Of a stretch of DNA of 37,079 bases, positions 21,511-33,456 are shown one piece after another (within the stretch, counting starts at the first letter, position 1; each line of letters opens with the position of its first letter). The notes under the pieces are model-generated. The model did not search any database. It was not told the DNA's origin and saw only the letters and a list, made by a program, of their open reading frames with translations. The stretch covers positions 1 to 37,079 of the IMG/VR virus record IMGVR_UViG_3300036900_000115. One strand, 5' to 3'. A program made the position numbers and the translations under genes. The DNA is from a virus.

Positions 21511-22407
21511 TCACACCACCTTGAGGTTATCGGCAAAATCACTGCCGGCCGCGCCCGGCATGATGATCGTTGCTCGCTGATGCGAGGTCGCATTCCAGCG
21601 CGTGGCGCACACGATCGCGCACTGCAACCCGATGCTTGAGTTGTCGTTGTCGGCGCAGATCACCAGGTGACCGACACCGAAGAGGACGGGCAAGCGCTCG
21701 ATGGCGCCGGCAGACCCAAGTGCCCACACCGGACGATGCCCGGCCTGGTGCAATGCTAGTCCCGTCTCGAGACCCTCGCAAACGTAGAGCTTCGGACAAA
21801 ACGACAGGCAGTCCCAGAACGTGTCGTGCCGCGAGGTGATCATCATCGCCGCGTGGCCGACCGGGCCAAGCATCATGCCCTCGGTTTTTTTGTTTTGATC
21901 CAGATCAAGAAACAGCCGCTGCACGGCCTGCGGCTTGAACGTCTCGACGTTTCGCATCAGTGCCACCAAGGCAGGCGCGCGCAGCTGTGCGTTGGGACAA
22001 CGCGGATGGAAGCCGATGACGTCGTTTGCCTTTGGCGGCAGCACCAGCCCTCTGCCGCGGAGGTAGACCTCCACCGACGTTCCGGCCGCATCCGCCGAGC
22101 CTTCCCAGATCTTCATCGCCAGCTTGCGGTGGCGATCGGGATCAGTGCGTGGCGTCTCGACCAGGCGGCGCTGCTCATGCGGATCGTAGACTGGGTCAAT
22201 GTCGCTGCTGTTCCACAGTCCACGCCTGCGCAGCGCATCGATGATGTCGAGCGGCTCGCAGCCGGCAAAGCAGCGCACCTGGACGCTCTCGCGACCGTCG
22301 AAGACGATCATTGATGGGTCGGCATCGTCATGCGCTGGGCAACGGCATTTCCACTGGTTGCCGGATCGATGGCCACCAAGCGCGCGGGCGATCTGGGCGG
22401 CGTTCAT
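21511..22407 (-). CDS. DNA primase with zinc-binding and toprim domains (298 aa)
   Basis: This enzyme is predicted to make RNA primers for phage replication. The N-terminal zinc domain has CRCPAHDDADPS (Cys21, Cys23, His26) and CFAGC (Cys46, Cys50). A toprim core of the Toprim_3 type follows: LYVCEGLETGLAL with Glu211, ALGSAGAIERLP, and LVICADNDNSS with Asp253 and Asp255. The start at 22407 (MNAAQIARALGG) overlaps the preceding gene by ATGA. A longer frame to 22800 covers another gene and is not used. Helicase follows immediately, as in many phage replication modules. Confidence 0.87.
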   Translation of the reverse strand: MNAAQIARALGGHRSGNQWKCRCPAHDDADPSMIVFDGRESVQVRCFAGCEPLDIIDALRRRGLWNSSDIDPVYDPHEQRRLVETPRTDPDRHRKLAMKIWEGSADAAGTSVEVYLRGRGLVLPPKANDVIGFHPRCPNAQLRAPALVALMRNVETFKPQAVQRLFLDLDQNKKTEGMMLGPVGHAAMMITSRHDTFWDCLSFCPKLYVCEGLETGLALHQAGHRPVWALGSAGAIERLPVLFGVGHLVICADNDNSSIGLQCAIVCATRWNATSHQRATIIMPGAAGSDFADNLKVV

Positions 22408-23222
22408 ACCCCACACATCCCTTCGCATTCGTTGTTGAAGAGGTTGAGCTGCCCGCGATCCTCGGCCGTCGAGAGATCGACCTGGTCGAGCGGCTTGAGT
22501 GAGCGATGCAGGAACAATTCGCTGCGTGTTGAGCCAAATCCCTTGCGAATGAGCTGGTCGACCTTCACCGCATCGGCCCACTCCTTGTTGTCTTTCCTGA
22601 TGTCGCGCCACTGCTCGTTGGAGTGATACGGACAGCCGATGCATGAGCTCTTCGGTGGCGTCGGATAGCCCTTGCGCTGCATCCACAGCAGGCAATCGCT
22701 GCGACTGAGGCGCTTCTCGATCAGCGGCCAGCGCCGATTGATCCACGGCAACTGTGCCGGCTTGACGCGGTAGATCTCGTCGGTGGAGATCCCCATCCAC
22801 AGCTGCACCAGATGCTCACGCGGATGCCGCTGCCGCGGCTTGATGCCGAGCTTTTCCTTCAGGTGTTTCTCGATCGGCTCGATCTTGTAGTGCCCGGTGC
22901 ATTGGCGCCGCAGCGGCGCGGCAATGCCGTCCTTGCCGGCGACAAAGAATGGTGCAGTCGCCGCCCGGCCCTGTCCCCTGATGCTCTCGCCCTTGGCGAG
23001 TTTGTCGATGTCGGTGCGGATGTTGCCCTGGCTCACGATCTCCACGGGATACGGCAACACATTCGCCGACATCAGCCAGCGCAGATGCTCGTAGACCTTT
23101 GCCGGCTCCCAGCCGGTGTCGGCAAAGATCGCGCAGTCAGGCATCGGCGTGAGCTCGCCGTGCGCCGCCATCAGCGCCATGGTGGTGCTCTGCACGCCGG
23201 CACCGAGCGAGATGATATGCAT
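22404..23222 (-). CDS. PP-loop ATPase, PAPS-reductase-like (272 aa), in the replication module
   Basis: The protein begins MHIISLGAGVQSTTMALMAA. SLGAGVQST is the PP-loop that binds ATP pyrophosphate, followed by CAIFADTGWEPAKVYEHLRW, a signature of the phage PAPS-reductase/adenine-nucleotide alpha-hydrolase superfamily. The CIGCPYHSNEQWRDIRK segment near the C terminus has a CxxC pair. Members of this superfamily activate substrates by adenylation; the phage branch has no settled role. It sits between the primase and small genes, coupled by overlaps. A second PP-loop enzyme of this phage is at 31276. Confidence 0.85.
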   Translation of the reverse strand: MHIISLGAGVQSTTMALMAAHGELTPMPDCAIFADTGWEPAKVYEHLRWLMSANVLPYPVEIVSQGNIRTDIDKLAKGESIRGQGRAATAPFFVAGKDGIAAPLRRQCTGHYKIEPIEKHLKEKLGIKPRQRHPREHLVQLWMGISTDEIYRVKPAQLPWINRRWPLIEKRLSRSDCLLWMQRKGYPTPPKSSCIGCPYHSNEQWRDIRKDNKEWADAVKVDQLIRKGFGSTRSELFLHRSLKPLDQVDLSTAEDRGQLNLFNNECEGMCGV

Positions 23223-23413
23223 CACGAGACCTCCATCATGGACTTGACGGTCTTGATCACGTCCTCGGGCTTGTCGGTGAGCGCGATGGTCTGTCCGTCG
23301 TCGGTGTGGATGACGGCGCCGCCGCCCTGGTTGATGTTCATCGAGACGATGTGCTCGAGCCAGATCCACACCGTGCCCTTGGTCAGCGCTGACGTTCCTC
23401 TGATGACGTTCAT
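23222..23413 (-). CDS. hypothetical protein (63 aa), beta-rich
   Basis: A 63-aa protein (MNVIRGTSALTKGTVWIWLE start) with strands VWIWLEHIVSMNI and GAVIHTDDGQTIALTD and a closing helix (EDVIKTVKSMMEVS). TGATG couples it to the PP-loop gene after it, and ATGA joins it to the gene before. Short beta-barrel-like phage proteins of this type are common but unnamed. A small DNA-binding or accessory role in replication is possible; nothing proves it. Confidence 0.68.
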   Translation of the reverse strand: MNVIRGTSALTKGTVWIWLEHIVSMNINQGGGAVIHTDDGQTIALTDKPEDVIKTVKSMMEVS

Positions 23414-28591: not shown

Positions 28592-28619
28592 TTGACCCTA
28601 GGGCTCTCGACCCTGTAAA
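28592..28619 (+). promoter_or_regulatory. candidate promoter of the xis/int operon with AGGGY-N5-RCCCT operator
   Basis: TTGACC (28592-28597) and TGTAAA (28614-28619) are separated by 16 bp. The spacer contains AGGGCTCTCGACCCT (28600-28614), the same 15-bp geometry as at 32073, 32171, 33420 and 4799. A protein bound there would cover both promoter boxes. AAGGAG lies 9 bases before the ATG of the gene at 28634. The promoter is inferred from sequence. Confidence 0.6.
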
Positions 28620-30069: not shown

Positions 30070-30117
30070 TGTCTGGGGGACAAGGGGTCGTGGGTTCAAA
30101 TCCCGCCGCCCCGACCA
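30070..30117 (+). other. att core: 3' half of tRNA-Pro(GGG)
   Basis: The segment from the anticodon loop to CCA is a clean tRNA 3' half. The loop is CTGGGGG (anticodon GGG) with closing stem ACAAG. The T-arm is GTGGG-TTCAAAT-CCCGC, then CGCCCCG, A and CCA. No matching 5' half (CGGGGCG plus D-arm) is present before it, so this is an att core that restores the host tRNA on integration, not a gene. Identity appears to begin near the anticodon stem. Confidence 0.8.
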
Positions 30118-31275: not shown

Positions 31276-32043
31276 TCAGGCGGCCGCCTGGCGCTGCGCC
31301 AGGTAGACGGTCCAGCTGAAGTTGCGGCCGAGCCCCTTCACCTTGTTGAGGCCGCGCTCGTGCGCCAGGCGCTCGATCTCTTTGGCGCGGGTGATCAGGT
31401 CTGGGTGAGCTGCGGCGAGCTGGTCGATCTCGCTCTTCTTGTGCGCCGGGCAGAACCAGCAGCAGCTCTTCACCGGCACCGGCAGGCCGGCCGCCTCGAT
31501 CTCGGCGATGCAGCGCGCGCGATCCCAACCCCACTCGATCAGCGGGAAGCGATTGATGTAGCCCTCGCTCGCCTTGCCTTCGGCCTTGTAGGCGCGGGCG
31601 CCGTCGCGCGGGCCGGCGTCGTAGCCGATGCACTGGGTGACCAGCTCGCCGGCCTTCCAGGCGTCGATCGCCGGCTGCCAGGTCTTCACAAACTTCTGCT
31701 GCGGATCGCGCTTCCACACCAGCGAGCACTGGTGTGCGCCGTAAGCAAGCGCCGGCAGAACACGCAGCTTGGTGATCTGATCTTCCAGCGAGGTGTAGCC
31801 GGCCTTCGGGCTGGCGTTCTTCACGATCGTGATCTGCGGGAAGCCAACGCGATCGAGCCAGGCGTTGATCGTGTCGAGGTAGGCGTAGGTCTCGGGGCGC
31901 TCCGAGCCGGTGTCGGCGAATAGGATTAAATCCGGCACCTCGCTGCGCTGCTGCAAACCGACCAGCATGGCGGTCGAGTCGACGCCCATGCCGTAGGCGA
32001 CGACGAGGGGTGATTTGCGGGTGGCTGCGATCTCGTGGGTCAT
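31276..32043 (-). CDS. PP-loop ATPase, PAPS-reductase-like (255 aa), partner of the DpdA-like gene
   Basis: The protein starts MTHEIAATRKSPLVVAYGMG. AYGMGVDSTA (residues 16-25) is the ATP-binding PP-loop, followed by PDLILFADTGSERPETYAYL, the family signature. A CCWFCPAHKKSEI segment with clustered cysteines is near the C terminus. Members adenylate a carbonyl or amide for sulfur, amine or ammonia transfer; QueC of the 7-deazaguanine pathway is one PP-loop member, though this protein is not an obvious QueC. I start it at ATG 32043, with AGGAG 6 bases upstream. It is divergent from the DpdA-like gene and shares its control region. Confidence 0.82.
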   Translation of the reverse strand: MTHEIAATRKSPLVVAYGMGVDSTAMLVGLQQRSEVPDLILFADTGSERPETYAYLDTINAWLDRVGFPQITIVKNASPKAGYTSLEDQITKLRVLPALAYGAHQCSLVWKRDPQQKFVKTWQPAIDAWKAGELVTQCIGYDAGPRDGARAYKAEGKASEGYINRFPLIEWGWDRARCIAEIEAAGLPVPVKSCCWFCPAHKKSEIDQLAAAHPDLITRAKEIERLAHERGLNKVKGLGRNFSWTVYLAQRQAAA

Positions 32044-32068
32044 TTGCATCTCCTGTTTGCTGACCCAG

Positions 32069-32206
32069 ATATAGGGTTCACCACCCTATATTCTCAAGCG
32101 CTTTGTGATTTTTAACCCTCTGGAAATACAGGGTTTTTACGATTTAATGTTTGTATGTAGGATGACAAACAGGGTTCTTGACCCTTAGGGTGTATCCCCC
32201 TATAAA
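32069..32206. promoter_or_regulatory. divergent promoter region with seven ACCCT/AGGGT half-sites
   Basis: On the plus strand TTGACC (32178-32183) and TATAAA (32201-32206) are 17 bp apart. On the minus strand TTGAGA and TATATC are 18 bp apart and enclose the perfect 9-bp-arm palindrome ATATAGGGT-N5-ACCCTATAT (32069-32091). Half-sites lie at 32073, 32083, 32115, 32130, 32171, 32181 and 32187. AGGGTTCACCACCCT (32073) and AGGGTTCTTGACCCT (32171) are full 15-bp operators, one per promoter. AACCCT-N10-AGGGTT (32114-32135) lies between them. The region is A/T-rich compared with its surroundings. Confidence 0.75.
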
Positions 32207-32231
32207 TGGCGCAGCAAACAGGAGCTGAGCC

Positions 32232-33152
32232 ATGGAAAAGACCACCGTTTACGGACTGCCGCTGAACCCGACCCACCTGCTGAACCAGCTGAAGGGCGCC
32301 TCGTTCTGCATCTCGTATGCAACGCGCGCCAAGCTCGGCAAGCAGCTCGACCAGGCGATCGAGCTCGTCGGCGAGAACGGCGTGCTGCTCGTCGACAACG
32401 GCGCCTTCTCGCACTTCATGAGCGGCGGATCGATGACCGAAGACTACATCGAGAGCTACGAGGCTTGGGCGAACGAGATCCTCGAGCGCTGCCCGCAGGC
32501 GATCGCCGTGATCCCCGACATCATCGGCGGCACCGTCGAGCAGAACGCCGAGCTGATCAACACCACGATGCTCGACACCGATCGCGCGATGCCGATCTGG
32601 CACATGGACGAGCCGATCAGCTACCTGCGTCACCTGCTCGACGGTGGCTTCAACTACATCGGTTTCGGCTCATCTGGAAAATACGCCAAGACCGTCGGCT
32701 CGGCCGAGTGGCACGCGCGCGTCAAGGAAGCGATGGACGCGATCGATGCCTGGGAGATCGAGGGCAACGAGTGCCGTCCGCGGATCCACATGATGCGCGC
32801 CCAGGCGTTCGCTCACCTCTACGCTTTCGACAGCTCCGACAGCACCAACGTCGCGGTCAATCACAATCGCTGGGCAAAGACGCACAAGGTCGCCGACAAC
32901 CACGTCGCCCAACTCGCAGCTCGCGTCGACGCCAAGATCCAGGCGAGCGCCGGCCCAGAGGCAGCGCACCAGGCGAAGCGCCCGCTGCTCGGCCATCTCG
33001 ATCGCGTCGATCTGCTGCAGAAATATTTTCTCATGGACCGCGGGTTCTCCGAAGAGGGCGCGCTCGAGTTCATCGCCGACTGTGCCGGCGATCTCAACGT
33101 CGACGTCGACGATCTCGAGCAGGACGAGCTCGAGCTGGCGCTCGCAGCCTAA
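32232..33152 (+). CDS. TGT/DpdA-like 7-deazaguanine transglycosylase candidate (306 aa)
   Basis: The protein shows the TIM-barrel pattern of phage DpdA, relatives of tRNA-guanine transglycosylase that exchange guanine for 7-deazaguanine in DNA. VLLVDNGAFSHF (Asp55, in place of DSGGF) is followed by AIAVIPDIIGGTVEQNA (Asp96), PIWHMDEPISYL (His124), GGFNYIGFGSSGKYA, PRIHMMRAQ (Arg184, His186) and YAFDSSDSTNVA (Asp200/Asp203). The C-terminal 80 residues are helical, with an acidic end. No folE, queD, queE, queC or queF is in the window, so the base may come from the host pathway. The fold call is strong; DNA as substrate is inferred. A plain tRNA enzyme is the alternative. Confidence 0.68.
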   Translation: MEKTTVYGLPLNPTHLLNQLKGASFCISYATRAKLGKQLDQAIELVGENGVLLVDNGAFSHFMSGGSMTEDYIESYEAWANEILERCPQAIAVIPDIIGGTVEQNAELINTTMLDTDRAMPIWHMDEPISYLRHLLDGGFNYIGFGSSGKYAKTVGSAEWHARVKEAMDAIDAWEIEGNECRPRIHMMRAQAFAHLYAFDSSDSTNVAVNHNRWAKTHKVADNHVAQLAARVDAKIQASAGPEAAHQAKRPLLGHLDRVDLLQKYFLMDRGFSEEGALEFIADCAGDLNVDVDDLEQDELELALAA

Positions 33153-33179
33153 TCACACACACCCCAACAGGAGACACAC

Positions 33180-33350
33180 ATGACGCACACTTACTGGACC
33201 TGGAAGCGCGACCAAGAGCTCATCGAGGCGCGCGCCACGCCGGCCGCCAAGCGCAACCGCTGGCAGCAGCTCATCGTCGAAGACGACGATCGCATGATCG
33301 CCGAAGAGCACCACAGCCTCGTCACCCTCGCCCTCGACCTCAACGTCTAA
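33180..33350 (+). CDS. 56-aa protein following the DpdA-like gene
   Basis: ATG at 33180 reads MTHTYWTWKRDQELIEARAT then PAAKRNRWQQLIVEDDDRMI, ending with an acidic helix and LVTLALDLNV. AGGAG lies 7 bases before the start. It is 27 bases after the DpdA-like stop and 37 before a terminator, so it belongs to the same transcript. It is an uncharacterised partner of the putative modification enzyme. Confidence 0.65.
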   Translation: MTHTYWTWKRDQELIEARATPAAKRNRWQQLIVEDDDRMIAEEHHSLVTLALDLNV

Positions 33351-33419: not shown

Positions 33420-33456
33420 AGGGCGCTTGACCCTAGGGGCCGGCGGCCGCTATAAA
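33420..33456 (+). promoter_or_regulatory. candidate promoter of the serine recombinase operon with operator
   Basis: TTGACC (33427-33432) and TATAAA (33451-33456) are 18 bp apart. AGGGCGCTTGACCCT (33420-33434) overlaps the -35, giving the same relation of operator to -35 as at 32171. GGCCGC-N7-GCGGCC is an additional inverted repeat around the -10 (33445-33463). AAGGAG is 7 bases before the ATG at 33481. Confidence 0.65.

Follow-up and report, generated by a model that had tools for sequence, protein, structure and literature searches.

A DpdA-like gene and a divergent SspD-like PP-loop gene in a temperate phage: a putative facultative DNA-modification module

Do the gene for a DpdA-like transglycosylase and the divergently transcribed gene for a PP-loop protein next to it form a functional unit in a temperate phage, and what would such a unit do? 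DpdA enzymes remove guanine from DNA and put an altered base in its place. The two genes lie in a 37-kb virus record, analyzed here over its whole stretch of 37,079 nucleotides (the window). The contig belongs to a temperate phage and carries genes for a terminase, a portal protein, a tail fibre, a primase/helicase, a RecE-like exonuclease, an Erf-like annealing protein, and a tyrosine integrase. The first-pass annotation had described three open reading frames (ORFs) at the locus, and all three were found, together with every motif quoted for them: (i) a minus-strand gene for a 257-aa protein at 31276–32049, (ii) a plus-strand gene for a 306-aa protein at 32232–33152, and (iii) a plus-strand ORF of 56 aa at 33180–33350. 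Neither of the two longer ORFs arose by chance, because the 306-aa product matches the phrog_887 family, "queuine tRNA-ribosyltransferase" (E = 1.4e-28), and the 257-aa product matches phrog_424, "PAPS reductase" (E = 5.5e-32). The 56-aa ORF has no Pfam or PHROG family match. Its one weak homolog (56% over 25 aa) is encoded just 3' of the dpdA-like gene in locus L018; the idea that the small ORF is a partner of the pair draws on this single relative and is weak.

A 45-nt stretch of the window (30073–30117) is 93% identical to the start of the Sinorhizobium phage phiLM21 and resembles the 3' end of a tRNA. This stretch is probably the attP site beside the integrase gene, and, as an attachment-site candidate, it suggests an alphaproteobacterial host from the Rhizobiales. 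When close DNA relatives of the region were sought in phages, this 45-nt site was the sole match.

Profile matches, the modeled structure, catalytic residues, and the neighborhood of its family all support the assignment of the 306-aa protein as DpdA-like. In a profile search of named phages, phrog_887 matched DpdA of Enterobacteria phage 9g (E = 2.5e-100), Escherichia phage CAjan (2.3e-98), and Salmonella phage 7-11 (1.1e-75), and it gave no match in Vibrio phage nt-1. The nt-1 enzyme represents a separate type, DpdA2 (PMC6884629). Enzymes of the nt-1 type lack His196 and fall outside the DpdA profile; the 306-aa protein retains this histidine as His186. Comparison over the barrel by hhalign related the protein to DpdA of 9g (96.7%), CAjan (96.2%), and 7-11 (100%) vs. 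0.2% for the Escherichia coli Tgt, a value equal to that of shuffled controls. The protein has no match above the Pfam cut-off, PF01702 included, and none in NCBIfam or PADLOC; the zinc site of Tgt (CxCxxC...H) is absent from its sequence, and PDB sequence searches returned nothing relevant. Judged by its sequence, it belongs to the phage DpdA family, as a protein of the phage singleton type, and has no relation to cellular Tgt. Its identity to the aligned relatives from named phages is about 26–35%, and it bears a C-terminal extension. A DpdA-like protein with 28.6% identity to the query is also encoded in a 1.7-kb record labeled as a Staphylococcus phage (OR850331.1); the query matches it just as it matches Salmonella phage proteins, and the record is possibly mislabeled.

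Three residues of the 306-aa protein, Asp55, His186, and Asp203, align with Asp72, His196, and Asp215 of the 9g enzyme. Together with Asp96 they are invariant across all aligned relatives in both alignments (A1 and A2), and these four are the predicted catalytic residues. The catalytic aspartate within the FDSSDSTN motif would be the second one, Asp203, since Asp200 is not conserved; this corrects the initial reading. The AlphaFold model of the protein (pLDDT 88.8, pTM 0.85) contains eight barrel strands, and the invariant residues sit on or just past these strands. Thus, the TGT-like (beta/alpha)8 barrel expected at 32232–33152 is modeled with confidence. The top structural matches in BFVD include several queuine tRNA-ribosyltransferases of named phages and the Vibrio phage nt-1 protein R9TGF0; a fold search of the PDB gave generic TIM barrels, with no TGT within the top 50. 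Fold and family are direct results of these comparisons, from which we infer the reaction. An example of a different protein context is provided by locus L019 (1–9438, plus strand), in which a DpdA-like domain is found inside a protein that spans 3145 aa or more, also has an SNF2 domain, and is of the injected polyvalent type. Such a fusion would fit the action of a DpdA-like enzyme on incoming DNA.

The divergent gene had been described as encoding a QueC-like PP-loop protein. The QueC identity was rejected: the PF06508/QueC profiles do not match, and the best families are SspD and PAPS reductase. In addition to phrog_424, the 257-aa protein matches PAPS_reduct of Pfam (PF01507, E = 1e-4, just over the cut-off) and, along most of its length, the SspD model of PADLOC (E = 3.9e-13); phrog_424 and the SspD model both represent broad families. 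The protein contains a YGxGxxSTA loop, and the YGxGxxST motif, as well as Cys108, Cys180, Cys197, and Cys200, is conserved in at least 96% of 71 homologs; the four cysteines are invariant in the 37-sequence alignment. The top PDB matches of its model (pLDDT 93.2) include PAPS reductase, LarE, TtuA, and NcsA, the last three of which are [4Fe-4S] sulfurtransferases; a marginal PDB match of the PP-loop profile, "PptA" (E = 0.01), was left unused. On these similarities, the protein is best classified as an SspD/DndC-like PP-loop protein (N-type ATP pyrophosphatase) and not as QueC. From the fold and the cysteines, the most economical guess is a role in sulfur transfer. The PADLOC scan, which took in 15 window proteins, detected no SspB/SspC or DndD/DndE partners.

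The same window encodes a second PP-loop protein similar to PAPS reductase and SspD, with a GAGVQST-type loop (22404–23231, minus strand; phrog_424 E = 9.1e-50, SspD E = 2.8e-7). Its gene, which adjoins the primase gene, had been missed in the first-pass annotation, and the two PP-loop proteins of the contig are only distantly related. Searching viral contigs with the 257-aa protein by itself found nothing, and an alignment-based search was needed to recover its homologs. About 10 of the 80 viral loci that had been selected by means of one PP-loop gene hold two such genes close together (L146, L147, L154, L180, L183, L186, L189, L199, L200, and L211); phage PAPS-reductase-like genes are often paired.

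The first-pass annotation had also proposed that the two genes share a control region, and here the signal is above chance. The intergenic stretch of 182 bp contains mirror-image promoters and leaders, joined by a 42-nt inverted repeat with 76% complementarity (arms 32047–32088 and 32186–32227). Local alignment of the two regions scores 35 vs. at most 26 in 2000 shuffles. Promoters were assigned by eye from the mirror repeat, and an identical leader, GCAAACAGGAG, precedes both genes. On the minus strand, the left arm (32047–32088) holds the candidate -10 box of the PP-loop gene (TATATC, 32068–32073) and the leader (32050–32060), and the -35 box read by eye (TTGAGA, 32092–32097) lies just outside the arm. 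The plus-strand promoter and leader of the dpdA-like gene (32178–32227) would comprise a -35 box TTGACC (32178–32183), a 17-nt spacer, a -10 box TATAAA (32201–32206), and the leader at 32214–32224. A sigma-70 scanner reported no promoter at its threshold in the control region, and Rfam gave no riboswitch or other RNA match there.

The 182 bp also contain AGGGT/ACCCT seven times vs. 0.17 expected, twice in the form of the operator-like site AGGGTTCNNNACCCT. One copy (32073–32087, plus strand) overlaps the PP-loop promoter; the other, accompanied by TTGACCCTNAGGG (32171–32190, plus strand), overlaps the -35 box of the dpdA-like gene. The same element as in the latter precedes the excisionase-like and integrase genes (28592–28614) and the serine recombinase gene (33420–33438). 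The exact string TTGACCCT(N)AGGG occurs three times in the contig, at 28592 in front of the excisionase-like gene, which itself lies upstream of the integrase gene, at 32178 before the dpdA-like gene, and at 33427 before the serine recombinase gene; it is found in none of 100 shuffles, and it overlaps the -35 boxes of both the dpdA-like gene and the serine recombinase gene. Because this element is shared, one regulator probably governs both the pair and the recombination genes.

The family neighborhood of the DpdA-like protein was analyzed in 129 loci with a relative, which come from phages, viral contigs, and bacterial genomes, and in a control set of 120 random phage or viral loci chosen by an arbitrary 14-mer. 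A transporter gene of the QPTR/YhhQ family (PF02592) is adjacent to the dpdA-like gene or lies within a few hundred bases of it in 27 of the 129 loci vs. none of the 120 (Fisher P = 5e-9), and QueD is encoded in 10/129 vs. 0/120. These neighbors tie the family of relatives to 7-deazaguanine. In L041, L042, L007, L080, L053, and about 22 other loci, the dpdA-like gene overlaps or adjoins the transporter gene. QPTR/YhhQ proteins import preQ0 and preQ1 (PMC11130926). Loci with these transporters or with QueD (about 10 loci) represent the 7-deazaguanine route of phages in a salvage form. The window had been said to lack the usual synthesis genes; consistent with this, a contig search that covered QueC, QueD, and QPTR recovered none of the three. 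Therefore, the host would be the source of the base. The suggested reliance on host preQ0 or queuine is plausible in this respect, and true QueC is encoded in 18 of the 19 bacterial genomes that carry a relative. The exception, Roseiarcus fermentans (L096), has a cellular Tgt and neither QueC nor QPTR. Among cultured strains it holds the closest dpdA-like relative found; this case is a weak point of the host-supply idea.

Recurrence of the pair was assessed in the same loci. SspD-like PP-loop genes are present in 20/129 loci vs. 1/120 random ones (P = 1e-5), a count made with a PP HMM that was built partly from positives and that was therefore repeated on whole contigs with the independent phrog_424 profile (9/50 with a dpdA-like gene vs. 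3/50). All nine positives are found no farther than 6 kb from the dpdA-like gene vs. 0.8 expected (Poisson P = 2e-7), and in 9 of the 20 loci the PP-loop gene is no more than 300 bp away from it, where 1.4 would be expected. Overall, SspD-like PP-loop genes occur near this DpdA clade at about ten times the expectation, as several subtypes unrelated to each other; the pooled statistics ignore kinship between loci, with L103 and L107 being 91–94% alike. Nearest to the arrangement in the window is L192: its dpdA-like gene shares 4 bp with a PP-loop gene of the same subtype as in the window, the two forming an overlapping operon. In L018 the two genes are 3.3 kb apart, and their products are 64% (PP-loop) and 65% (DpdA-like) identical to those of the window. 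In L001 a different PP-loop subtype occupies the same place in divergent orientation. The clade formed by the DpdA-like proteins of the window, L001, L015, L018, and L020 (49–74% identical) has at least four PP-loop subtypes in its neighborhood, no more than 31% identical to each other, and nearly all of the subtypes beside it score best as SspD. If the two genes are functionally coupled, such an exchange of partners with a retained role is the pattern to expect. Another arrangement is seen in Granulicella, Silvibacterium, Cupriavidus, and a Proteobacteria MAG (L103, L107, L110, and L123), where a larger SspD/BrxP-like PP-loop gene is located directly upstream of the dpdA-like gene on the same strand.

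On the other side of the count, 109 of the 129 dpdA-like loci have no PP-loop neighbor, and about 4 of the 80 contigs chosen for this PP-loop subtype carry a dpdA-like gene (L142, L149, L157, and L192), so neither gene needs the other. Thus, the pair recurs above chance in unrelated phages but is facultative. The view of the pairing as a unit is supported in part: the pair recurs, with replacement of PP-loop subtypes, but the two genes are mostly found apart. Among the papers searched, none names "queuine tRNA-ribosyltransferase" and "phosphoadenosine phosphosulfate reductase" together with phage, which is a weak sign of novelty only.

A natural explanation, to which we give about an even chance, is that the two genes form a facultative DNA-modification module of a temperate phage, which combines a host-derived base, exchange by the DpdA-like enzyme, a sulfur-transfer or tailoring step by the PP-loop protein, and co-expression. 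The DpdA-like enzyme would replace guanine in the DNA of the phage with a 7-deazaguanine base that the host provides, acting through an aspartate nucleophile as in TGT and DpdA. The PP-loop ATP pyrophosphatase would most likely use ATP to transfer sulfur to DNA or to the inserted base, or to tailor either of them in another way. Both genes would be co-expressed from the mirror-image promoters with the shared operator-like element. The likely benefit, by analogy with tested DpdA phages, would be resistance to host nucleases. The first half of this scheme draws on family and residues, and the PP-loop half on fold, cysteines, and neighborhood. A narrower version, in which both enzymes act on one and the same DNA position and the inserted 7-deazaguanine, or the adjacent phosphate, is thiolated or activated in some other way by the PP-loop protein, would imply an undescribed sulfur-containing 7-deazaguanine DNA modification; we regard it as quite unlikely. 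Caution about the mechanism is urged by singleton DpdA phages with little or no modification: in PMC6884629, Salmonella phage 7-11, whose DpdA belongs to this subgroup, has only 0.02% dADG, and Orion, another phage with a lone DpdA, has no modification.

A possible, though less favored, explanation is that the DpdA-like enzyme modifies phage DNA alone. The PP-loop gene would then be an accessory gene in its own right, serving a separate DNA or nucleotide modification or sulfur metabolism, and it would be co-regulated with its neighbor only because both belong to the lysogeny region. This would agree with the prevalence of either gene without the other, with the wide distribution in phages of PAPS-reductase homologs whose roles are unknown (PMC11437467), with the second PP-loop gene far off in the window, and with the operator element, which also stands before the integrase and serine recombinase genes and is not specific to the pair. 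The tenfold local enrichment and the close adjacency of several unrelated PP-loop subtypes argue against it, as do the overlapping operon in L192 and the mirror promoters that join the pair.

Other explanations concern the activity of one of the proteins. The barrel protein might act on host or phage tRNA or on free nucleotides and thereby alter translation, or it might be catalytically repurposed. The PHROGs family name, tRNA-ribosyltransferase, points in this direction, and so does the record of this exact subgroup, for which the relevant passages of PMC6884629 report trace dADG in 7-11 and no strongly modified genome. We nevertheless consider it unlikely, given that the profile comparison sides with DpdA and places Tgt at the level of shuffled controls, that the zinc motif of Tgt is absent, and that one relative is embedded in the giant SNF2-containing protein of L019. 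Far less probable still is a QueC-type PP-loop enzyme that makes the base for the neighboring transglycosylase. The two kinds of enzyme share the ATP-pyrophosphatase superfamily, and distant neighbors of dpdA-like genes elsewhere score marginally as QueC (L110, PF06508 E = 0.003), but the contig yields no QueC match, the best families are SspD and PAPS reductase, and the absence of QueD leaves the phage with no substrate pathway.

The recurrent link with SspD/DndC-like sulfurtransferases, in which the PP-loop subtype next to a single DpdA clade is repeatedly replaced, points to a second step in the chemistry. Through this link, some of the abundant phage "PAPS reductase" genes, which are often counted as sulfur-metabolism genes, would gain a function as well.

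Several known systems resemble parts of the locus. The DpdA proteins of the 9g/CAjan type and the singleton ones, that of 7-11 included, share with the 306-aa protein the PHROG profile, the Asp/His/Asp residues, and the barrel fold; the window differs from named DpdA phages in the low identity and the C-terminal extension of its protein. SspD and DndC, which act in DNA phosphorothioation, and BrxP resemble the 257-aa protein in the PP-loop fold, the nearly full-length SspD profile match, and the conserved cysteines. Unlike SspD and DndC genes, the PP-loop gene of the window adjoins a gene for a base-exchange enzyme, its scores are low, and the usual partners have no match among the proteins scanned. 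In the QPTR/YhhQ–DpdA and QueD–DpdA pairs, a member of the same DpdA-like family likewise has one adjoining helper gene. There the helpers supply the base, whereas in the window, which has no transporter, a PP-loop enzyme takes the helper's place. Lone-DpdA phages have been described before and, in the passages of PMC6884629 devoted to them, constitute the largest group of DpdA phages; as in that singleton group, no preQ0 biosynthesis genes were found in the contig. A divergent SspD-like PP-loop gene and a mirror promoter go unmentioned in those passages. Thus, the DpdA-like gene alone is a further member of a described group, and the new part is the recurrent SspD-like partner and the mirror promoter.
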